64,000 bases of DNA from Pseudarthrobacter sp. NamE2 (GTDB lineage: Bacteria > Actinomycetota > Actinomycetes > Actinomycetales > Micrococcaceae), in contig NZ_VAHN01000002.1 of assembly GCF_005796205.1 (NCBI RefSeq), forward strand, positions 1-64,000, written 5' to 3'. Positions within the stretch are counted from its first letter, which is position 1, and the number at the start of each line of letters is the position of its first letter. The translations under genes were made by a program, and so were the position numbers. Under the pieces are notes generated by a model. The model was not told where the DNA came from, made no database searches, and was given only the letters and a program-made list of their open reading frames with translations. Below are positions 14,642 through 27,016 of this stretch, piece after piece.

Positions 14642-15799
14642 ATGTCCGCGAACCAAGGCTTCAATACCCGTGCCGTACACGCAGGGCAGGATTTCGAGCC
14701 CCGTACCGGCGCCGTGGTCCCGCCCGTGCACTTTGCCACCACCTATGCGCAGGACGGGATCGGCGGGCTCCGCGACGGGTATGAATACAGCCGCGGCGGG
14801 AACCCCACCCGCGATGCCCTGCAGGAGCAGTTGGCAGCCCTGGAGCTTGGTACCCACGCGTACAGCTTCGGCTCCGGCCTCGCCGCCGAAGACGCCCTCA
14901 TCCGCGGGCTGGCACAGCCGGGCGACCACATCGTGCTCGGCAACGACGCCTACGGCGGAACCTACCGGCTCATCAGCCGGGTACTCGGCCCGTGGGGAAT
15001 CGGCAACACCCCCGTGGACATGGCCAACCTGGACACCGTCCGGCAGGCCGTCGGGGCGAACAAAACCCGCCTCCTGTGGGTGGAGACGCCTTCCAACCCG
15101 CTGATGAAGATCACGGACATCGCGGCGCTCGCCGAGATTGCGCACGACGCCGGCGCCCTCCTCGTCGTCGACAACACCTTTGCGTCCCCCTACCTGCAGA
15201 CCCCGCTCGCCCTGGGTGCCGACGTCGTCATCCACTCCACCACCAAATACATCGGCGGGCATTCCGACGTGGTGGGCGGCGCCGTCGTGGTTAAGGACGC
15301 GGAACTGGCGGAGAAGATCGGCTTCGTCCAGTTCGCCGTCGGCGCCGTTTCCGGCCCGATGGATGCCTTCCTCACCACCCGTGGCCTGAAGACCCTGGGC
15401 GTCCGTATGGACCGGCACAGCCTTAACGGCCAGGCCGTGGCCGAGTGGCTACTGGACCGTCCCGAGGTGGAGGCGGTCCTGTACCCGGGCCTGCCCGGCC
15501 ACCCCGGCCATGAGCTGGCCAGGAAGCAAATGCGGCAGTTCGGCGGCATGGTGTCCGTGCAGTTCAAGGGCGGCGAGGCGGCGGCCCGGAAGGTGGCCGA
15601 ATCAACCAAGGTGTTTATGCTGGCGGAGTCCCTCGGCGGCATCGAGTCACTCATGAACTACCCGTCCGAGATGACCCACGCCTCGGTCAAGGGCACCGAA
15701 CTGGCAGTTCCAGTCAATCTGCTGCGACTCTCCTGCGGCATCGAGGACGTGGAGGACCTGATCGCAGACCTGGAGCAGGCCTTCAGCTCGATCCCGTGA
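14642..15799 (+). CDS. metB: Cystathionine gamma-synthase
   Basis: A 385-residue Cys/Met-metabolism PLP enzyme. The Schiff-base lysine is K202 in IHSTTKYIGGHSD. The substrate-phosphate loop YSFGSGLAAE (about 74-83) and the ending LRLSCGIEDVEDLIADLEQA are typical. It makes cystathionine from an O-activated homoserine and cysteine, but the close relative cystathionine gamma-lyase works in reverse, and the neighbouring beta-synthase makes the lyase activity plausible. AAGGAGC precedes the ATG. The metB symbol is the usual annotation, not proof of direction. Confidence 0.9.
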   Translation: MSANQGFNTRAVHAGQDFEPRTGAVVPPVHFATTYAQDGIGGLRDGYEYSRGGNPTRDALQEQLAALELGTHAYSFGSGLAAEDALIRGLAQPGDHIVLGNDAYGGTYRLISRVLGPWGIGNTPVDMANLDTVRQAVGANKTRLLWVETPSNPLMKITDIAALAEIAHDAGALLVVDNTFASPYLQTPLALGADVVIHSTTKYIGGHSDVVGGAVVVKDAELAEKIGFVQFAVGAVSGPMDAFLTTRGLKTLGVRMDRHSLNGQAVAEWLLDRPEVEAVLYPGLPGHPGHELARKQMRQFGGMVSVQFKGGEAAARKVAESTKVFMLAESLGGIESLMNYPSEMTHASVKGTELAVPVNLLRLSCGIEDVEDLIADLEQAFSSIP

Positions 15800-18964: not shown

Positions 18965-19846
18965 CTAGTGAAGGCGCTGGCGCTTTCGTGCGATGACGAC
19001 GACGCCCGTCAGGATGGCTGCGGCCCCCGCGACACCGGCCACGACGCGTGCCATCGCGTGCGGCATGGCGGGCTGGGGGGCGGTGGCATTTCTCGTGCCG
19101 TCTGCTTTGGGACCGGGGGTGGTTTTCGTACCGGCGGCGTAAACGGCTGGCTCCACTCCCATGACAATCCGGTCTCCAGGCGTGGCGCTTACCAGGAGGC
19201 GGGTCACAGTTTCGAGGTCTGTCGAAATACATCCGGCAGTGACTGAATTGCCGGCATGCAGGAAGATGGCGAAGGAAGCGCCCTGAACGGTAGGCATGTC
19301 CGGTTCACGGTTCCAATTGATGACCGCCGCCTGCTCGTAATCGCCCTGCCGAAGATAAAACCAGAGGTCTTCGTCGGCGCCGCCGTCTTTACCTTCGAAG
19401 TACTGGTTGTATGTGGGGCCTGGTTCACCGCCCCACCGCGAGAGGCGGTTGATCGTGTGGTATTTAAGCCTCGTTCCTGGGTTTTTCCTGCCCAGTGCCT
19501 CGGTAAAGGAAAACGACCCCGACGGCGAGTAGAGAGTGTCTTGCCACATCTCGCCCGGCGGGGCGAAACCGGACCTTCCGGCAAACCCTCTGCTCTGCCA
19601 CTCCTGGACGTACTCTTCCCCTTTCTTGGCGCAACCAGTAATGAGGACTTCGGTAGCACCATAGGATTTTGCGGTGGCGAACGTCACCCGTTTCGCGCCG
19701 TAGGTGGGATAGAGCACTTCGCCTGCAGTTAATCGTTCACACGCGTTGGTCACGATCCCCTCGAGAGGTGCGGCTGGGCTTGGGATTGGCGGAAGACCCA
19801 ACACTGCTGATAGAGCCAAAGGTGCTGCCAACAGCTGATTCATCAT
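18965..19846 (-). CDS. Membrane-anchored L,D-transpeptidase (YkuD/L,D-TPase family)
   Basis: A 293-residue exported protein. An N-terminal signal sequence (LLAAPLALSAVLGLPP) is followed by the actinobacterial L,D-TPase layout: SRGFAGRSGFAPPGEMW, PSGSFSFTEALG, then the catalytic block FLHAGNSVTAGCIST with His near 210 and Cys near 220. A C-terminal helix (ARVVAGVAGAAAILTGVVVI) with the basic tail ARKRQRLH anchors it. Such enzymes form 3-3 cross-links or attach proteins or modify stem peptides. Its ATG overlaps the stop of the upstream acyltransferase gene (ATGA; a second ATG follows directly), so it is translationally coupled to the synthetase operon. Confidence 0.85.
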   Translation of the reverse strand: MMNQLLAAPLALSAVLGLPPIPSPAAPLEGIVTNACERLTAGEVLYPTYGAKRVTFATAKSYGATEVLITGCAKKGEEYVQEWQSRGFAGRSGFAPPGEMWQDTLYSPSGSFSFTEALGRKNPGTRLKYHTINRLSRWGGEPGPTYNQYFEGKDGGADEDLWFYLRQGDYEQAAVINWNREPDMPTVQGASFAIFLHAGNSVTAGCISTDLETVTRLLVSATPGDRIVMGVEPAVYAAGTKTTPGPKADGTRNATAPQPAMPHAMARVVAGVAGAAAILTGVVVIARKRQRLH

Positions 19847-21138
19847 TGCTGTTGCGCACCTCGATGAAATTCAGTGCTGGTAGAGGCTGGCTTCCCGTCT
19901 GCCCTGCGACTCTGTGGCCCAGCCTCGGTCCTGCTACCGGAGGCTGCAGAGGGGCCCAACGGCGTGTTTTCAGCAGATAATGCTTTGCCGAGCACCCGCT
20001 GACGTGCATGCTCAGCAAGGCCGGTCACCAGCCGTTCCAGCGGCCCTTGCTTGCCGCCTGTCACGTTTCTCCAGATTATTGCCAAAACGGCCGCGACGAC
20101 CAGATGGATTGCCAGACATACGCCCGGCCGGTCGAGGAGGAAGCCTGTGGAGAGGAGTATGAGATGACCCGCGTACAGCGTCAGCGTCATTCCGCCCATT
20201 ACGGCCAGTGGCATGAGTGCTGATGCTGCCTTATTACCCAGGATCAGCATCGCGCCCAGAACGGCCACAGCGATTCCAATCGTGTTCAGGAGTTCCAGGG
20301 GCGTGGATGAATACGGCGACAGGACCGCAAGCCACCACCATGATGAAGTCGGTAAGGTCGGGTCGGGACCCCAGATCAACAGGTCACTTATTCCCTCGCT
20401 GTCCAGCCAAGGGGTGGCCTCCAGCAGTCGCGCCCTGCCTCCGAGGGGACCTAGCAGAATTTCCGATGCCAGCCACGCGCCTGTTGCCACTCCGAGCCCG
20501 CCGCAAACCATTTTGAGTTGCATCCGATGCGAACGCAGGTCAAGCCGGCCCAGAGCAAGACCCGCCGCGATATAGGCCATCCATGGGATGGCGGGAAAGC
20601 TCCCGTCAACCAATAGTACCGAGATGGTTGCAGCTGGCTCGATGATAAGTGAGGCGAACGTTGGATCGAAACCGCCAAGGTCCGGCAGGTCGTCGCGGAC
20701 CGCTTGCATAAAAATGGGGCCGAGTACGGCAAAGCCCAGGGCGGCGACTGCAAGTACGCGAGGGCCGAACCCCAACAGGGGAACCGCCATCAGGAACAGG
20801 ACCCCGTAGTAAGCCAAGATGATTGCTGCGGGAGGGTTTAGGTAGGCGATGAGTAGGCCGATGGCGAGGATGACAAGTGCTCGTACTGCCAGGGACGCCT
20901 TGGCGGCCGTCAGTGCGGGCCCTGCGAGCGGATGCATCCCGCCGGAAGAGAAGGTCAGCGAAACCCCGGCAAGGAGAGCAAACAGACCTGCCGACGTGCC
21001 AGAAAGAACGGTCCAAACGAGCGTTGGTTGAAAGTTTTCGTCAAACCCGGGCAGGACGTGGATGGCGATCATCCCGATCAATGCGATTCCCCTGGCGGCG
21101 TCGACTCCAACAAGGCGCTGCTTTTTCGTCGTTTTCAT
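19843..21138 (-). CDS. Polytopic DUF418/DUF1624-like acyltransferase
   Basis: A 431-residue integral membrane protein with about ten helices. It opens GVDAARGIALIGMIAIHVLP, the signature of DUF1624/heparan-alpha-glucosaminide N-acetyltransferase-like and DUF418 proteins, which move acyl groups across the membrane. The last 60 residues are hydrophilic and cytoplasmic (SAENTPLGPSAASGSRTEAG). The ATG at 21138 follows AAGGA; the upstream in-frame TTG at 21171 is less likely. It lies between the synthetase (82 bases upstream) and the L,D-transpeptidase (4-base overlap), which implies one transcript. Acylation of the synthetase product or of a wall glycan is an inference. Confidence 0.78.
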   Translation of the reverse strand: MKTTKKQRLVGVDAARGIALIGMIAIHVLPGFDENFQPTLVWTVLSGTSAGLFALLAGVSLTFSSGGMHPLAGPALTAAKASLAVRALVILAIGLLIAYLNPPAAIILAYYGVLFLMAVPLLGFGPRVLAVAALGFAVLGPIFMQAVRDDLPDLGGFDPTFASLIIEPAATISVLLVDGSFPAIPWMAYIAAGLALGRLDLRSHRMQLKMVCGGLGVATGAWLASEILLGPLGGRARLLEATPWLDSEGISDLLIWGPDPTLPTSSWWWLAVLSPYSSTPLELLNTIGIAVAVLGAMLILGNKAASALMPLAVMGGMTLTLYAGHLILLSTGFLLDRPGVCLAIHLVVAAVLAIIWRNVTGGKQGPLERLVTGLAEHARQRVLGKALSAENTPLGPSAASGSRTEAGPQSRRADGKPASTSTEFHRGAQQQ

Positions 21139-21220
21139 ACTTGTTCCTTGCTCATGATGATTGCGCCCCATACGGCCACCTCTCGGTTGTTTGCCCTACG
21201 ACTACCTTGGTTCTTGGGCA

Positions 21221-24200
21221 TTAATGCCTCCTCGTGCGCGGGCGAAGTGGGACCGCACCTGGCGACCATTGGCGGATTGGGTTTCCGGCCCAACGGGTGC
21301 CCGCGGGAACAGTCTCCGAACGCATCACGAGGGATGCCGCACCAACCGTGGCACCTTCCATGACCGTGCTGCCCGGCAGCACAATGCTGTTCGGGCCTAA
21401 CGTGGAATCGGTATCAAGCCGTATTTCGTCCATCCGCATGATGCGATCGTGAAAGAGGTGTGTCTGCAGCACTGTCCCGCGGTTCACGCTGACGCCGCTG
21501 CCCAAGGTGATCAGGTCGAACTCCGGCAGCCACCAAGTCTCACACCAGACGCCGCTGCCCACCTTGGTGCCCATTAACCGCATCCACCAGTTTAAGATGG
21601 GTGTCCCCAGGCTCAGCCGGATAAGACCGGGGACCGCGAGTGACTCGGCAAACACGTCGACGAGCTCGTTGCGCCAAACGAAGGAAGTCCAAAGCGGGTA
21701 TTGCGTAACTTCAAAGCGCCCCACCAGAACCCATTTCGCAGCTAGCGCCATGAGAGAAGCCACGACGCCGCTGCCCAACAGCACCGGCCCGGACCACAGG
21801 ACTGTGACGACGAAACCGGCTCCAAGGTAGATTTCGGTCAAAACCCCTACAGTGATCAAGGCGAGCCATGACGTGATGACCGCCGGAAGAAGTCTGCACG
21901 CTTCGACTGCTGCGCGTGCAATCAGGAGATGACGTGGAGGGTTGTACGTAAGGGTGGAGTCACCGTTGTCCACCGGGCGGGGAAGTTCCACGGGAGGACG
22001 TCCAAACCACGACGAGTTTATTGGCATGTCTTTTGGTGCAGAGGACAGGACAGCGAGCAGTGAGTTATCGGGAACCGTGCAGTCCGGTCCTACAATCGCG
22101 GAATTGCCGACAAAGGATCTTTTTCCCACGCTGGAAACGCCTAGATGGAGCCAGCCGTTGCGGACACGTTTCGAGGAAACCATGGAGTGATCTGCCAGGA
22201 ATGATCGGTCCGCGAACCGCGTGAGGTGCGGCAGGGTCTCTACTGTCGAGATTTCAACGTGTTTGCCAACGTGGGCGCCTATCATCCGCATCCATACCGG
22301 CGTGAACAAGCTGGCGTAGATGGGGTAGGTGGAGATCAGCGATTTCGTAAGCAAGGCTTCAGTCAACCAAGCCGCCCACGCGACTGCGCCATTCGCCGGA
22401 TGAAACCCCGGCTTTAGGAGAATGCTCAGAGCGCGCACCAACGCTACCGTCAGGGTCAGATAGACAACGAGCGTAGCTATTAGGAACACCGGACTCCAGG
22501 CCGCCAAACTCCAGAGGGCGTTTTGCAGCGAGACGCTGCCTTCAATGGCGTGCAGCGCCAGGAGTCCCCCCGGAATCACAGACACCAGAGGTATAAGGGT
22601 CAAACCGAAGAGCGAGACGGGATAAAGGAGCGAGATCATCGGTGACGGGCGGCCGTGGCAGGGAGTGGAGGGCCAATCGGTGCCCGCTTCTCCTACATGC
22701 TCCATTTGCGATCCAGCCCAAAGCTGACCCGCCGGTACCTTCCCTGTCACGGATGTACCCGGTGCAATTTCCGCGTGAGCCCCTACATGGCTGTCATTCA
22801 ATAGCGTGGAACGCGTCCCAACGCGCGCGTTGTCATCGACTCTGACGCGGCCGATGTGCAGGACGTCACCGTCGAGCCAGTGCCCGGCCAGGTCCGCTTC
22901 ACGCTCGATTGATGCGCCGGCCCCGAAGGTCGCAAGCCCAGTGACGGGAGGCATGGCATCGAGGTGGACGTCCTTGCCGACCTCACATCCCAGCGCGCGG
23001 GCATACCAGGCTGCCATGGGCGTGCCCATAAGCGGCTCGAGTTTGCAGTAGGTGGCCACCCGTTCAACAGTCCACAACCTCAGGTGGGTTGGGCCTCCCC
23101 GAGGGTAAACTCCGGGTCTGATCCCCGCAAGCAGGAGACGGGCGCATGCCACTACGAGAAGAAACCGGAAAGGAAGACTGTAGAGGACAACCCACGCCAT
23201 CATTGTGGGCAACAGCGGCGGATTCGGAACCCACAAGTAGTTACCAGTGTGGAAGAGGATGATGCAGACGATCATGATGCCGGTGATGTAGCGCAGGCCC
23301 GTGATGGAGTACAGCGCGAAGATCACTGCTGCCTGGAGCCAACCGGTGGATGCGGGAGTAGGGGCCGTGTGCCGCGTCGTGGTGACCGAACTCGCACTGC
23401 CCGCCAGATGCGTTGCCAGTTCGCCGAGGGTCGGGAACGCGTAAATGTCGGCGATCGAAATATCCGGGTAGCGAGCCCGCAAGGATGACACCAGCTGCGC
23501 GGCCGCCAGGCTAGCTCCGCCGGCGGCAAAAAAATTGCTCTTCTCGGTGAGTGGCACGGGACCAAGCAGGTCCCTCCATTGTTGAGCCAGCCAAGATAAT
23601 TCGCCTGTAAGTTCCTTGGGAGAATCCTGACTATGAGTGCCGAGCGGCCAGGGGAGGGCTTTCCTGTCCACCTTGCCCGAGGTCTTAATGGGAAGTTCCT
23701 CGATGATGCCAAGGGTGGGAACGAGTTGCGCGGGAAGCTTTTTTGCAAGAAGCGCCCGGCATTCGCCAAGATCGATAATCGAATCCTTTGCCGGCACTAA
23801 ATATCCCGCGAGCACCTTATTGCCACTGGGGCTCGTCTGGATGGCCCCGGCAGCTGCGGCCACTCCCGGCAGTCCGGCGAGAGCTTGGTCAACTTCACCC
23901 ATCTCGACACGTCGGCCCGCCAGCTTGACCTGCTCGTCGGCTCTGCCGACGAATACCAGACCGGCCGGATCCGCCAGTACGAGGTCACCGCTGCGGTAGG
24001 CCCGCGGCCACCCTAGAGCAGGGATTGGGGCGTACTTTTCCGCGTCCTTCGCCGTGTCCAAGTATCGGCCGAGCCCTACTCCGCCGATAACCAGCTCGCC
24101 CTCCTCCCCCCAGTTAACCGGTTCGCCATCCGCGTTGACGACGGCAAGGGCGTACCCGTGCAGCGGAAGCCCAATCCTCACAGGGGACTGGCCATCCACC

Positions 24201-25270
24201 AATGCTCCGCAGGCGATGACTGTTGCTTCCGTGGGGCCGTATGTGTTCCAAACTTCGCGTGTTGGGCTGGCCAGCTTGGCCACAAGGTCCGCAGGACATG
24301 CCTCGCCGCCAAAGATGAGCAGCCGGACTTTGGCCAGTGACTCGCCCGGCCATAGCGCTGCAAGGGTGGGCACTGTGGACACGACTGTTATGTGTCGTTG
24401 CGCCAGCCACGGACCGAGATCAGCGCCGGAACGAACCACGTCCCGGGGAGCAGGAACAAGGCATGCCCCGTTCCGCCAGGCCAACCACATCTCCTCACAG
24501 GAGGCGTCGAACGCGACAGATAATCCGGCCAGCACCCGGTCGCCCGGCCCGAGCGGGTTGTTGACACAGTAAAGTTCCGTTTCGGCGTCAACCAAGGCAG
24601 CCGCCGAGCGGTGGGTGATGGCAACACCTTTTGGCTTGCCGGTGGACCCGGACGTGAAAATGATCCAGGCGTCATCCTCACAGTGCGCTTCCGGGCTATG
24701 CCCCCGAGTGCGCACCCCCCCGATAAGGGTGAGTTCAAGGCCCTCACCGATAACTGCACAAACAGCTGCTTCTGACCAGACCGTTTCAGCCCGGTCCTCC
24801 GGTTCATCAGCGTCAACAGGAACATACGCCGCGCCGGCAGCCAGTACCCCCAAAATTGCGATATACAGGTCTACGGAACCTGACGGAACACGAACACCAA
24901 CACGGTCTCCAGCGCCGATATTCGCGCTCCACAGCCTCCGGGATACGTGGATAATTCGCTCGCCAAGGGCCTCATAGGTCAACACCACGTTCCCGTCATC
25001 AAGAGCCGGCGCAGCAGGGTACAACGCAATTGTTTCCTGGATGATCTGGACCAGGGTCCGTGCCTGCGGAGCTTCCGTAACCGGAAAGAAGGCTGCACCT
25101 GACAACTTCGTCGGCTGTCCGTGCAGAGCGCTGGACACGGCAGGACCCTTGATCGACTCGGTTGCCGTCGTGGAATCAGTGGGTGGCACGGCAGCGGGTG
25201 TGTCGCTGCTGCTGCCTCCCGCTGATACGACACCGCGATGTGACGTACCTGAAGAGTTTGTAGGATCCAA
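21221..25270 (-). CDS. Pls/PosA-type membrane nonribosomal peptide synthetase
   Basis: A 1349-residue synthetase with the layout of epsilon-poly-L-lysine synthetase. An adenylation domain (about 72-545) shows A3 IIFTSGSTGKPKG, A5 WNTYGPTEAT, A7/A8 YRSGDL and VKLAGRRVEMGEVDQ, and A10 Lys533 in TSGKVDRKAL. A carrier domain (about 553-623) has the pantetheine serine S587 in FFAAGGASL. Three left-handed beta-helix/condensation-like lobes (about 765-850, 1000-1090, 1235-1330) alternate with membrane segments (about 645-720, 880-955, 1120-1180). In FDASCEE, D255 is the amino-group-binding Asp and E259 the 239-equivalent, which hints at a basic amino acid. The TTG start has TAGGAG seven bases upstream. 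The product is unknown. Confidence 0.9.
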   Translation of the reverse strand: MDPTNSSGTSHRGVVSAGGSSSDTPAAVPPTDSTTATESIKGPAVSSALHGQPTKLSGAAFFPVTEAPQARTLVQIIQETIALYPAAPALDDGNVVLTYEALGERIIHVSRRLWSANIGAGDRVGVRVPSGSVDLYIAILGVLAAGAAYVPVDADEPEDRAETVWSEAAVCAVIGEGLELTLIGGVRTRGHSPEAHCEDDAWIIFTSGSTGKPKGVAITHRSAAALVDAETELYCVNNPLGPGDRVLAGLSVAFDASCEEMWLAWRNGACLVPAPRDVVRSGADLGPWLAQRHITVVSTVPTLAALWPGESLAKVRLLIFGGEACPADLVAKLASPTREVWNTYGPTEATVIACGALVDGQSPVRIGLPLHGYALAVVNADGEPVNWGEEGELVIGGVGLGRYLDTAKDAEKYAPIPALGWPRAYRSGDLVLADPAGLVFVGRADEQVKLAGRRVEMGEVDQALAGLPGVAAAAGAIQTSPSGNKVLAGYLVPAKDSIIDLGECRALLAKKLPAQLVPTLGIIEELPIKTSGKVDRKALPWPLGTHSQDSPKELTGELSWLAQQWRDLLGPVPLTEKSNFFAAGGASLAAAQLVSSLRARYPDISIADIYAFPTLGELATHLAGSASSVTTTRHTAPTPASTGWLQAAVIFALYSITGLRYITGIMIVCIILFHTGNYLWVPNPPLLPTMMAWVVLYSLPFRFLLVVACARLLLAGIRPGVYPRGGPTHLRLWTVERVATYCKLEPLMGTPMAAWYARALGCEVGKDVHLDAMPPVTGLATFGAGASIEREADLAGHWLDGDVLHIGRVRVDDNARVGTRSTLLNDSHVGAHAEIAPGTSVTGKVPAGQLWAGSQMEHVGEAGTDWPSTPCHGRPSPMISLLYPVSLFGLTLIPLVSVIPGGLLALHAIEGSVSLQNALWSLAAWSPVFLIATLVVYLTLTVALVRALSILLKPGFHPANGAVAWAAWLTEALLTKSLISTYPIYASLFTPVWMRMIGAHVGKHVEISTVETLPHLTRFADRSFLADHSMVSSKRVRNGWLHLGVSSVGKRSFVGNSAIVGPDCTVPDNSLLAVLSSAPKDMPINSSWFGRPPVELPRPVDNGDSTLTYNPPRHLLIARAAVEACRLLPAVITSWLALITVGVLTEIYLGAGFVVTVLWSGPVLLGSGVVASLMALAAKWVLVGRFEVTQYPLWTSFVWRNELVDVFAESLAVPGLIRLSLGTPILNWWMRLMGTKVGSGVWCETWWLPEFDLITLGSGVSVNRGTVLQTHLFHDRIMRMDEIRLDTDSTLGPNSIVLPGSTVMEGATVGAASLVMRSETVPAGTRWAGNPIRQWSPGAVPLRPRTRRH

Positions 25271-25885: not shown

Positions 25886-26674
25886 CTAACCAGCAGCGAA
25901 CTTGGAGATCTGGATCTCGTTTCCGTTCCCATCGACAGGGACCGTGGGATTCACCTCATAACCGTTCATTAGCCATCGGCCGTGAACCAATGCGAATTCG
26001 TAGGTAAACTCGCTGCGAAGTGCCTGGGTGAAATGCTCGTTCTTCTCTTTATCCTGCAGGTGGGCAACGTAGCGCACTTTGGCCTGCAGGGCGACTGACT
26101 CTCCGTCTTCGGCAAGCCAAACGCGTGGCGAGTCAATTACCACGTCGGAAAAGCGTGGTTTGTCCGGCTCATACCGGTAATCGATGACGCTGTCGTAGTC
26201 CGGATGCCAGGGCTGCCAAGCCGTAAATGCCACGCCTTCCTGCTTGAAAGTCTCATAAAACTCGGACTCCGCTTCGTCCAAAACCAGGTGCTTTATGGTC
26301 TCCCACCACTCGTCGAAGATGGTCAGGTCGCCGTTCAGAGGTGAGTCCAATCCGACCTCCACCATCATGTTCGTGCCCAACTGGTAGACCTCTGCGAGCT
26401 GCTCAGGGGAATACTTTTCGCGGACCTCCGGACGAACAAAATCAGCATTGTCGATAGGCGCTTGAGGAATGTCCGCCGGGTCGAGCCTGACCTGCTGGTA
26501 GGTACCGTGGGTGTTCCGGTTAGGCGCAAGGAGGAAAGCCTCTCCCGACTCCCGTACCGGCTTTTTCTCCAGTCCGGCGCCCCCCATCGAGCAGCCAGCG
26601 GTGAGTATGACGGTGCATGCCAGGAGTACCGACACTGCGGTACGCCCTGCACGGATGCAGAGTAATGACGTCAT
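25886..26674 (-). CDS. Putative lipoprotein of unknown function
   Basis: A 262-residue lipoprotein. The signal peptide ends at the lipobox ILTAGC (Cys28). The mature part is acidic and Trp-rich (FDEWWETIKHLVLDEAESEF, then FTAWQPWHPDYDSVIDY) and ends with a strand-rich region (SEFTYEFALVHGRWLMNGYE) resembling NTF2-like or conjugation-associated lipoproteins. I do not recognise the family. The ATG at 26674 follows GGGGG at nine bases. It is read toward the synthetase operon but is separated from it by 615 bases, so co-transcription is unlikely. Confidence 0.72.
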   Translation of the reverse strand: MTSLLCIRAGRTAVSVLLACTVILTAGCSMGGAGLEKKPVRESGEAFLLAPNRNTHGTYQQVRLDPADIPQAPIDNADFVRPEVREKYSPEQLAEVYQLGTNMMVEVGLDSPLNGDLTIFDEWWETIKHLVLDEAESEFYETFKQEGVAFTAWQPWHPDYDSVIDYRYEPDKPRFSDVVIDSPRVWLAEDGESVALQAKVRYVAHLQDKEKNEHFTQALRSEFTYEFALVHGRWLMNGYEVNPTVPVDGNGNEIQISKFAAG

Positions 26675-27016
26675 GAGCGTAACCCCCAAGTGTCTCTCTC
26701 AGTGCCCTGAGGTAGATGAGTCCAAAGAGATCGCTGCCCTACACCCAAGGCGCTGCCGGCAATTACCGCATCCTATCCCGAAAACCACCGATTTTCACGG
26801 TCTCAATTTGCCGCCCGCTGGAGCCGGCCACCCGTAAGCGCCGGCACAACCAGCATCAGGCATCCCGTGGTCCGCTCGACGACGGTTGGCGATGCCATTA
26901 GCCGATTTGAGAACACAGCCATGGAAATCAACACCCCTCAGTAATCAGGTGGTGCAATCACCGCATCCAGCCAAGGGTCCAGAACGACAGTTAGCGCTAC
27001 CCAGTCGGAGGAGGGG
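26675..27016. other. Gene-free stretch
   Basis: I see no gene, RNA or clear regulatory site in these 342 bases, apart from the promoter space of the lipoprotein gene. Confidence 0.4.

Follow-up and report, generated by a model that had tools for sequence, protein, structure and literature searches.

A candidate polylysine operon with a transmembrane acyltransferase and a YkuD-fold protein in Pseudarthrobacter sp. NamE2

A Pls-type synthetase gene followed by the gene of a predicted transmembrane acyltransferase is a widespread core, and among the loci examined a YkuD gene stands beside this pair only in part of one family. All three genes adjoin in the window, the whole stretch of 64,000 nucleotides analysed here. 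We judge the chances to be about even that they form a polylysine cassette, in which the polymer would be acylated at the outer face of the membrane and processed there by the YkuD cysteine enzyme, a chemistry that we infer.

Operon layout and the synthetase

ORF calling placed three intact frames head to tail on the minus strand (Table 1), confirming the one-strand gene set and the four-base ATGA overlap (19843 to 19846) between the second and third frames that the sequence-only reading had described. The 82-base gap given there between the synthetase and acyltransferase genes holds when the latter starts at the next in-frame ATG (21138), but counted to the ATG upstream of it (21171) the gap is 49 bases. 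The synthetase start codon is preceded by GGAG, and the synthetase frames of two other loci (L062 and L063) likewise open at TTG and have a similar N-terminus. The GC content of the trio is lower than that of the window, and its flanks have nothing in common with those of three relatives except for one match of 33% identity; the trio therefore seems to move as one unit.

Table 1. Features of the operon, with positions in the window
Feature	Position	Strand	Evidence
Pls-type epsilon-poly-lysine synthetase (predicted), 1349 aa, TTG start	21221..25270	-	TIGR02353 605 bits, cut-off 423
Adenylation domain, residues 59-544, pocket code DAESIGTVIK	23639..25096	-	638 bits to PDB 7wew
Carrier (PP-binding) domain, residues 560-622, GGxS serine	23405..23593	-	PF00550 38.4 bits, cut-off 20.8; serine read from sequence
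C-terminal membrane/hexapeptide polymerisation domain (predicted), residues 691-1332	21275..23200	-	TIGR02353, PF00132
Short gap, site of dapA in most subclade relatives; no dapA in window	21172..21220	-	Sequence, locus comparison
HGSNAT/DUF1624-type transmembrane acyltransferase (TmAT, predicted), 442 aa; alternative start 21138	19843..21171	-	PF07786, motifs, HGSNAT fold Z 23.9
Exported YkuD-fold cysteine enzyme (predicted), 293 aa; N-terminal signal (by eye), C-terminal membrane anchor	18965..19846	-	Predicted fold, sequence
YkuD-fold domain, residues 47-234; His197 and Cys206 near-invariant; Ser208 at Cys+2	19145..19708	-	Alignment, predicted fold
Long C-terminal helix of YkuD protein, residues 263-292, basic tail	18971..19060	-	Helix from model; transmembrane reading from sequence

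The synthetase matched the Pfam families AMP-binding (194 bits), PP-binding (38 bits), and hexapeptide (36 bits), and its membrane domain matched the NCBIfam model TIGR02353 (cut-off, 423.1). Among the five Pfam families found up to an E value of 1, PF00501 and PF00550 were present and there was no condensation or thioesterase family. This domain plan, the lysine pocket, and the TIGR02353 domain are common to the window enzyme and the Pls enzymes of Streptomyces and Corynebacterium variabile (PMC8117764; 7wew). In the alignment, the pocket code differed from that of the epsilon-poly-L-lysine synthase 7wew (DAESIGTVVK) by one conservative change, and the window synthetase has the alanine at code position 2 that is tied to lysine (PMC10522769). 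Diaminopropionate, diaminobutyrate, and ornithine synthetases (PMC10522769 and PMC8225329) belong to the same enzyme class, but the window enzyme differs from them in having the lysine pocket. A dapA gene, encoding about 312 aa, lies 3' of the synthetase gene at 30 of the 34 loci of the subclade, and its product matched PF00701 with 252 bits in the one copy scanned; DapA beside Pls fits a supply of lysine. Based on the lysine pocket and the adjoining dapA of relatives, the product is very probably a lysine polymer, likely epsilon-poly-L-lysine. The earlier proposal of a basic amino-acid homopolymer synthetase is thus borne out, and at the sequence level the pocket reads as lysine type rather than as one for a non-basic amino acid. 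The window operon has no dapA and could for that reason be decaying, yet its frames are intact. At locus L127, an apparent DapA-acyltransferase fusion of 722 aa was rejected, because its N-terminal stretch comes from reading out of frame, with dapA itself encoded in another frame.

The window synthetase is 60 to 80% identical to 12 aligned relatives. In a FastTree tree of 64 rows, which did not contain the Streptomyces and C. variabile sequences, its clade excludes 16 peptidase-neighboured control synthetases, which were hand-picked and not random. A clean separation of the two synthetase types by bit score was not upheld. A gap exists between 1467 and 1399, but the types mix below it, with a peptidase-type row at 1378 and an acyltransferase-type row at 1371, and the split into types was therefore drawn from the tree.

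The acyltransferase and the gene neighbourhood

The second protein matched PF07786 (HGSNAT_cat) with 50.4 bits against a cut-off of 22. TmAT enzymes are marked by DxxR in TMH1, FxxxxG in TMH2, an arginine in TMH3, and a tyrosine in TMH9 (PMC12423673). The motifs of all four helices are present in the window protein, as D24xxR27-x10-H38, F64xxxxG69, R97, and Y333, with the glycine of TMH6 left out of the comparison. F64, G69, and Y333 are invariant in 16 aligned acyltransferases, and D24, R27, and R97 are nearly so. Among the AF2 models, which rest on 31 and 16 sequences, that of the acyltransferase matched HGSNAT with a Z score of 23.9 (rmsd, 3.6; 298 aligned), followed by GWT1 with 13.8 and the next row with 6.8, and HGSNAT was also the best Foldseek match (E, 1.2e-3). 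The family, signature residues, and fold common to this protein and the HGSNAT/TmAT superfamily (PMC12423673) support its assignment as a predicted TmAT-superfamily transmembrane acyltransferase, and the sequence-only reading, which had named it an acyltransferase, is upheld. The histidine of the R-x10-H motif in TMH1 is the AT3 form, whereas HGSNAT, an amine acetylator, has asparagine at the site; the window enzyme also differs in being bacterial and in having a polycation synthetase as its gene partner. TmAT enzymes are known mostly as sugar modifiers, often of surface glycans (PMC12423673).

Within the family, eight GTDB genera carry loci that combine the synthetase, acyltransferase, and YkuD genes. 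The association, which the earlier reading had proposed to check by a search for the same gene order across actinobacteria, is therefore conserved well beyond strain level, and the arrangement is not a strain-level oddity. An acyltransferase gene lies 3' of the synthetase gene, on the same strand and within 1.5 kb, at 33 of 34 subclade loci and at all 20 loci of a neighbouring group (53 of the 54 synthetases examined in the two) but at none of the 16 control loci; neighbour counts were redone over all copies rather than the nearest only. When relatives were ranked by a search with Pls alone, 49 of the 54 loci came in the top 50 rows; with one of these rows left out (G376), an acyltransferase was downstream in 49 of the 49 examined. 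The synthetase of one subclade locus in a fragmented genome (L081 in G073) has no downstream acyltransferase and a DapA-like fragment upstream. Three more distant synthetases (L188, L192, and L198) were counted apart, and one of them has the acyltransferase downstream. Some relative of the acyltransferase is found in 324 of 395 genomes of the family.

An M1 peptidase gene lies within 1 kb downstream of 15 of the 16 control synthetases and at 3.5 kb in the other; upstream of one control synthetase (L191) there is a weak acyltransferase relative (31%). This layout resembles the described pls-peptidase operon, with its downstream M1 peptidase (PMC8117764), whereas the window operon has the TmAT and YkuD genes, joined by dapA in most relatives. 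No M1 peptidase relative was found between positions 15001 and 31000 of the window. The YkuD gene is beside the synthetase at 28 of the 34 subclade loci. It is missing from the other 6 and from all 20 neighbouring-group loci, so the core function does not depend on it.

The reverse association was examined in a profile scan of genome contigs, with an alignment built from synthetase-adjacent acyltransferases and one peptide pattern and with the best 80 of 129 kept. A synthetase was within 2.5 kb on either strand at 56 of 78 acyltransferase loci, a rate biased by this design; 13 of the 78 had no synthetase in reach and a further 6 end at a contig end. The adenylation proteins at two of the 56 (L246 and L276) and at two of three loci where they lie farther off (L231 and L242) have codes unlike Pls (DIWQxTxDDK) and may be ordinary peptide synthetases. 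The same acyltransferase family also adjoins synthetases with another pocket (DFEYxGTVTK and the like), including distant synthetases with phenylalanine at pocket position 2. Recurring neighbours were compared at 43 loci. One of about 330 aa, at first taken for a sortase, reads as an exported alpha/beta-hydrolase-like protein and had no Pfam match in the one copy scanned. No account of the synthetase-acyltransferase pair was found among the open-licence literature matches listed.

The YkuD-fold protein and the role of the operon

The sequence-only reading had taken the third protein for an L,D-transpeptidase. Its membership of the YkuD family stands on predicted fold and conserved residues but is weaker than that reading implied, as PF03734 scored 18.4 bits, under the cut-off of 23.4; 23 of 31 aligned members match PF03734 at an E value of 0.01 or better. 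His197 and Cys206 are nearly invariant across the 31 rows. The best 50 rows listed for the model were YkuD-fold entries with Z scores of 9.3 to 12.7. Csd6 was the best (12.7), Pgp2 ranged from 11.9 to level with Csd6, and YkuD itself was 1.3 lower; the fold is also common to Bd1075 (11.4) and DpaA (9.8). According to PMC10653827, Csd6 and Pgp2 are L,D-carboxypeptidases, and many but not all L,D-transpeptidases have an arginine at Cys+2, which DpaA, like the window protein with its serine, lacks. A helix at residues 161 to 166 of the model may be the counterpart of the helical L3 loop of hydrolytic members. The serine at Cys+2 and the carboxypeptidase folds thus leave the transpeptidase assignment without support so far. 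In contrast to Csd6, Pgp2, Bd1075, and DpaA, the window protein has a C-terminal anchor and a place in a Pls operon, and phmmer against solved structures gave no match up to an E value of 10; a profile search of the same structures gave Csd6 only (E, 0.41).

Judged by eye, Pls-linked YkuD proteins often look membrane anchored, through a helix at the C terminus or at the N terminus or through a lipobox-like cysteine; those of L136, L142, and L158 have no clear anchor of these three kinds. They did not form one clade in a quick IQ-TREE search without bootstrap. Within the genus, relatives of the YkuD domain occur in fusion with LGFP or FG-GAP repeats; LGFP is a wall-binding repeat. Long open frames had suggested a direct YkuD-acyltransferase fusion, but the extra parts were LGFP or FG-GAP repeats in the copies examined.

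The target of YkuD enzymes is the alpha-carbonyl at the L-centre of a diamino acid. For Braun's lipoprotein, the partner is the epsilon-amine of lysine, giving the same kind of bond as in the epsilon-poly-lysine backbone. In the mechanism that we propose, Pls would activate L-lysine, load it onto the carrier domain, and polymerise it in the membrane domain, a step well supported by the sequence. The HGSNAT-like enzyme would pass acyl groups, most likely acetyl groups supplied by acetyl-CoA, through the membrane to free amino groups of the emerging polycation, which would either become less charged and less toxic to its producer or be turned into a modified product. With less assurance, the membrane-tethered YkuD enzyme may act at the same outer face, where its task could be to shorten the polymer, to alter stem peptides, or to link one to the other. 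We lean slightly towards the polymer as the acyl acceptor; a wall glycan or lipid could take its place. Against the proposed mechanism stand the mainly sugar-directed activity of known TmAT enzymes, the AT3-form histidine, and the acyltransferase relatives that have no synthetase nearby. Action of the YkuD enzyme on the polymer or on a polymer-wall junction is suggested only tentatively.

Alternatively, Pls may secrete plain epsilon-poly-lysine, while its partners leave the polymer untouched and shield the envelope, the acyltransferase by acylating a wall or membrane component that then repels the polycation and the YkuD enzyme by remodelling stem peptides through L,D-carboxypeptidase or transpeptidase activity. 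Such self-protection would agree with the surface glycans that TmAT enzymes commonly modify (PMC12423673), with the LGFP/FG-GAP fusions, and with the L,D-carboxypeptidases Csd6 and Pgp2 (PMC10653827) as the best folds. However, the acyltransferase gene follows 50 to 310 bases behind the synthetase in two-gene loci and also adjoins synthetases whose pocket is of another kind, which favours the polymer as the target over any single wall chemistry; we hold this possible, on the unlikely side. It is also very unlikely that the trio are chance neighbours or a broken relic without joint function. The missing dapA and the lower GC content would suit a relic, but recurrence in eight genera, intact frames, and the identity of the synthetase to its 12 relatives speak against it.

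Two further readings assign the YkuD enzyme to the polymer itself. As a hydrolase, it would cut the alpha-carboxyl-epsilon-amine bonds of polylysine as an alternative to the PldII-type M1 peptidase. DpaA, which cleaves the bond between Braun's lipoprotein and peptidoglycan (PMC10653827), is among its fold matches with Csd6 and Pgp2, arginine is absent at Cys+2, and five subclade loci without YkuD carry an M1 peptidase. However, fourteen loci have both genes within 6 kb, which are thus not simple substitutes, and the known degrader is a PldII-type peptidase (PMC8117764), making this role doubtful. As a transpeptidase, the role favoured by the sequence-only reading, it would join polylysine to peptidoglycan stem peptides and produce a wall-linked polycation, for which LdtA-C, YkuD enzymes that join Braun's lipoprotein to peptidoglycan (PMC10653827), offer a precedent; we infer that carbonyl and amine groups of the same type would be at hand here, and the frequent membrane anchors would suit the role. 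Serine instead of arginine at Cys+2, the possible hydrolase-like helix, and the lack of YkuD at neighbouring-group loci argue against such grafting, which we consider improbable. Just as hard to credit, if anything slightly more so, is its fullest version, in which polylysine would serve as an envelope polymer besides being a secreted antibiotic, the TmAT would acylate it at the membrane face, and the tethered YkuD enzyme would couple the amine of its last lysine to the stem-peptide L-lysine, giving the wall a covalent, tunable polycationic brush made with the same type of lysine bond throughout.

Significance of the pairing

Polylysine is an antimicrobial polymer. According to PMC9606270, it is unclear what biological significance the polycationic homopoly(amino acid)s of bacteria have, and no description of the acylation of such cationic polymers was found among the open-licence literature matches listed. 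With the acyltransferase gene following nearly all synthetases examined of the subclade and its neighbouring group and also lying beside diaminopropionate- or diaminobutyrate-like ones in other actinobacterial families, many of these polymers are predicted to be acylated. The acyltransferases are possible enzymes for making modified polylysine, and the YkuD partner might connect polylysine with peptidoglycan. The recurrence of the pairing in many relatives suggests that these bacteria chemically modify or handle polylysine at their surface in some as yet undescribed way.

Operon layout and gene products

The sequence-only reading proposed an operon of a Pls-type (epsilon-poly-L-lysine synthetase-type) synthetase, an acyltransferase, and an L,D-transpeptidase that makes a polycation tethered or accommodated in peptidoglycan. 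Re-reading of the window open reading frames (ORFs) confirmed the operon, with its coordinates and ATGA overlap correct: the minus strand encodes, in head-to-tail order, a 1,349-aa synthetase with a TTG start (gene 1), a 442-aa polytopic protein (gene 2), and a 293-aa exported protein (gene 3). The reported 82-base gap holds if gene 2 begins at its second ATG but is 49 bases with the first. Upstream of the operon is a gene for a 267-aa putative lipoprotein, which matched nothing in Pfam (E up to 1) or in NCBIfam (E up to 0.1).

Coordinates of the trio and of neighboring features in the window and in relatives' stretches (L numbers)
Feature	Location	Strand	Remark
Pls-type synthetase (gene 1)	window 21221-25270	-	
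HGSNAT-type acyltransferase (gene 2)	window 19843-21171	-	
YkuD-fold protein (gene 3)	window 18965-19846	-	
Putative lipoprotein	window 25886-26689	-	
4'-Phosphopantetheinyl transferase	L122:4840-5658	-	PF01648
4'-Phosphopantetheinyl transferase	L131:8803-9483	-	PF01648
Alpha/beta-hydrolase-like protein	L131:11049-11975	+	GYSGGAE motif; also L160, L162, L164, L166, L173-L176, L178, and others
Three acyltransferase paralogues	L139:4014-10228		one strand

The source genome comprises 4.04 Mb in 64 contigs, and the GC content of the trio is 60.8%, versus 64.7% for the window. When window ORFs of at least 120 aa between 10 and 40 kb were compared with the trio flanks in three relatives' genomes (G018, G044, and G504), the only ones with matches were the trio's own ORFs and one further gene (33% identity, L062). 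G018 and G044 seemingly have flanking genes in common, judged by eye from N-termini. The trio appears to move as a unit.

The gene 1 product carries AMP-binding, PP-binding, and hexapeptide domains (Pfam) and matches TIGR02353, the Pls/PosA family, at 605 bits (cut-off, 423). Against 7wew, a solved structure of epsilon-poly-L-lysine synthase, its adenylation domain scored 638 bits, and its pocket code is DAESIGTVIK versus DAESIGTVVK in 7wew. The residue at pocket position 2 is tied to the substrate: Ala goes with lysine, Met with ornithine, and Phe with diaminopropionate or diaminobutyrate (PMC10522769, in part). We infer that the polymer is epsilon-poly-L-lysine, a product that is now better supported. 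DAESIGTVIK occurred in 78 of 132 aligned synthetase rows, duplicates included, and DAESIGTVVK in 22, made up of the 16 controls, five loci from a single genus, and a second synthetase in L221. An unusual code, DFECLSVVTK, was seen in Pls-like synthetases of L188, L192, L265, and L266.

By family and modeled fold, the gene 2 product is a transmembrane acyltransferase. It matched PF07786 (HGSNAT catalytic), of which DUF1624 is the older name, at 50 bits against a cut-off of 22. The transmembrane acyltransferase superfamily (TmAT) positions checked, as defined in PMC12423673 (in part), were all present (DxxR, FxxxxG, TMH3 Arg, and TMH9 Tyr), as was an AT3-type His at R-x10-H. The best match of the AF2 model (mean pLDDT, 85.9) was human HGSNAT (Z 23.9 over 298 residues, rmsd 3.6), followed by GWT1 at Z 13.8 and the next row at Z 6.8; Foldseek E-values were modest, the best (1.2e-3) again being HGSNAT.

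For gene 3, the window copy scored 18.4 bits against PF03734 (YkuD), under the 23.4 cut-off, and matches with an E of 0.01 or lower were obtained for 23 of 31 aligned family members. The YkuD fold is seen in the model (mean pLDDT, 83.7, with >90 in most core blocks), with matches to Helicobacter pylori Csd6 (Z 12.7), Campylobacter jejuni Pgp2 (Z 11.9), Bd1075 and Bacillus subtilis YkuD (both Z 11.4), mycobacterial Ldt enzymes (Z about 9-11), and DpaA (Z 9.8). His197 and Cys206 are nearly invariant among aligned members. The Cys+2 residue is Ser, whereas many transpeptidases have an exposed Arg at this position and the amidase DpaA has a buried Ala, and a short helix at residues 161-166 of the model may correspond to a loop that is helical in hydrolytic YkuD members (PMC10653827, in part). 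Based on this Ser and helix, the prediction leans towards a hydrolase. By eye, many Pls-linked copies carry a helix at the C- or N-terminus or a lipobox-like cysteine, and a few carry none of these. Close same-genus relatives of the domain are fused N- or C-terminally to LGFP repeats (L065, L068, L071, L072, L085, and L087), and in L064 a close relative is fused to FG-GAP repeats; these stretches yielded no relative of Pls.

Conservation of the gene association

The family includes loci of Arthrobacter, Kocuria, Rothia, Zafaria, and Citricoccus. Of 395 family genomes, 221 had a synthetase (E 1e-100 or better), and a gene 3 relative was present in 52 of 199 relatives. Some acyltransferase relative was present in 324 of the 395 genomes, so that the acyltransferase family is widespread and it is the gene's position alone that stands out. 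The loci examined comprised 49 of the top 50 by synthetase score, the next three with slightly lower scores, and two taken from earlier searches. They fall into subclade A, with 34 loci from nine GTDB genera, and neighbor group B, with 20 loci from Kocuria, Rothia, and other genera, and were compared with 16 picked controls with synthetases of the published pls-peptidase type. In subclade A, 33 loci had the acyltransferase gene downstream in the same orientation, 30 had dapA, 28 had YkuD (18 downstream and 10 divergent upstream; eight genera), and 19 had an M1 peptidase gene within 6 kb. All 20 group B loci had the downstream acyltransferase, and none had dapA, YkuD, or M1. All 16 controls had a downstream M1 peptidase gene, 15 of them at a distance of up to 1 kb and the remaining one at 3.5 kb, and downstream acyltransferase, dapA, and YkuD were each found in 0/16. 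In a synthetase tree with seven distant synthetases as the outgroup, 41 acyltransferase-type rows (local support, 96) stood apart from 16 peptidase-type rows (100).

The dapA product, scanned in one copy, belongs to the dihydrodipicolinate synthase family (252 bits). The window genome appears to lack the operonic copy, as its nearest DapA is 48% identical to the operonic DapA of G044. A lysine supply role fits, since extra dapA raised the epsilon-poly-lysine yield of S. diastatochromogenes by 19.8% (PMC8506220, in part).

Other genes recur at these loci. In 12 loci of one genus, the downstream acyltransferase gene is accompanied by another copy that is oriented divergently from Pls (L132, L143-L151, L154, and L157). 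Three paralogues cluster in a Kocuria-type genome (g49), in a 17-kb stretch where no Pls relative was found. A 4'-phosphopantetheinyl transferase gene, expected to activate the Pls carrier domain, recurs near the Pls-acyltransferase cluster in 12 loci plus five of one genus among 43 compared; neither of these two sets includes the window. An exported alpha/beta-hydrolase-like protein, a possible deacylase partner, occurs in 15 of the 43, mostly near Pls-acyltransferase clusters without YkuD (exception, L122); the L131 copy had no Pfam match.

To look beyond the family, genome_contigs was scanned with an alignment of synthetase-adjacent acyltransferases; the best 80 of 129 matches gave 78 loci, 56 with a synthetase within 2.5 kb (36 lysine-type and 20 distant), which is not an unbiased rate given how that alignment was built. 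Three others had a synthetase within 3.3 kb, six were cut by a contig end, and 13 had none. Genera with such neighbors among the matches listed include Corynebacterium, Rhodococcus, Pseudonocardia, Geodermatophilus, Modestobacter, Kutzneria, and Micromonospora. Most distant synthetases that could be aligned had DFEYxGTVTK-like or DFECxxVVTK-like codes, indicating that the acyltransferase is not restricted to a single kind of polycation synthetase as its partner. Among the best 80 of 129 matches, the loci that lie outside the family had no YkuD relative of the gene 3 family beside them.

Proposed polymer handling and relation to published operons

The analysis established the gene order, families, folds, and pocket; the roles that follow are proposals. 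Braun's lipoprotein link joins the alpha-carboxyl of the L-centre of a diamino acid to a lysine epsilon-amine, and position 3 of Arthrobacter peptidoglycan is usually L-lysine. YkuD enzymes make or break the link between Braun's lipoprotein and peptidoglycan (PMC10653827, in part), and polylysine has alpha-carboxyl to epsilon-amino bonds (PMC9205021, in part). This likeness is suggestive of a YkuD role and, with L-lysine at position 3, the gene 3 enzyme may cleave polylysine, trim the stem peptides of peptidoglycan, or link the two. HGSNAT acetylates an amino group (PMC11357348, in part), with acetyl-CoA entering from the cytosol (PMC12423673, in part), and by this analogy the acyltransferase would acylate the polymer at the outer membrane face.

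Pls was reported in Arthrobacter and Glutamicibacter by BLAST, and the described operon partner of epsilon-poly-lysine synthetases is a peptidase gene (PMC8117764, in part). The available main text of that paper contains neither "acyltransferase" nor "transpeptidase," and that of PMC4668381 and PMC8225329 neither "acyltransferase" nor "acetyltransferase." The available text of PMC12067966, which compares epsilon-poly-lysine clusters of Microbacterium and Agrococcus, names no acyltransferase or YkuD partner. Among the titles and abstract starts listed in searches of open-licence papers, none dealt with a Pls gene adjoined by a gene for either an HGSNAT-type acyltransferase or a YkuD protein. 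The association of the synthetase gene with a TmAT acyltransferase gene, which is strong, is one that we did not find described; within part of a single family, dapA and YkuD genes accompany the pair.
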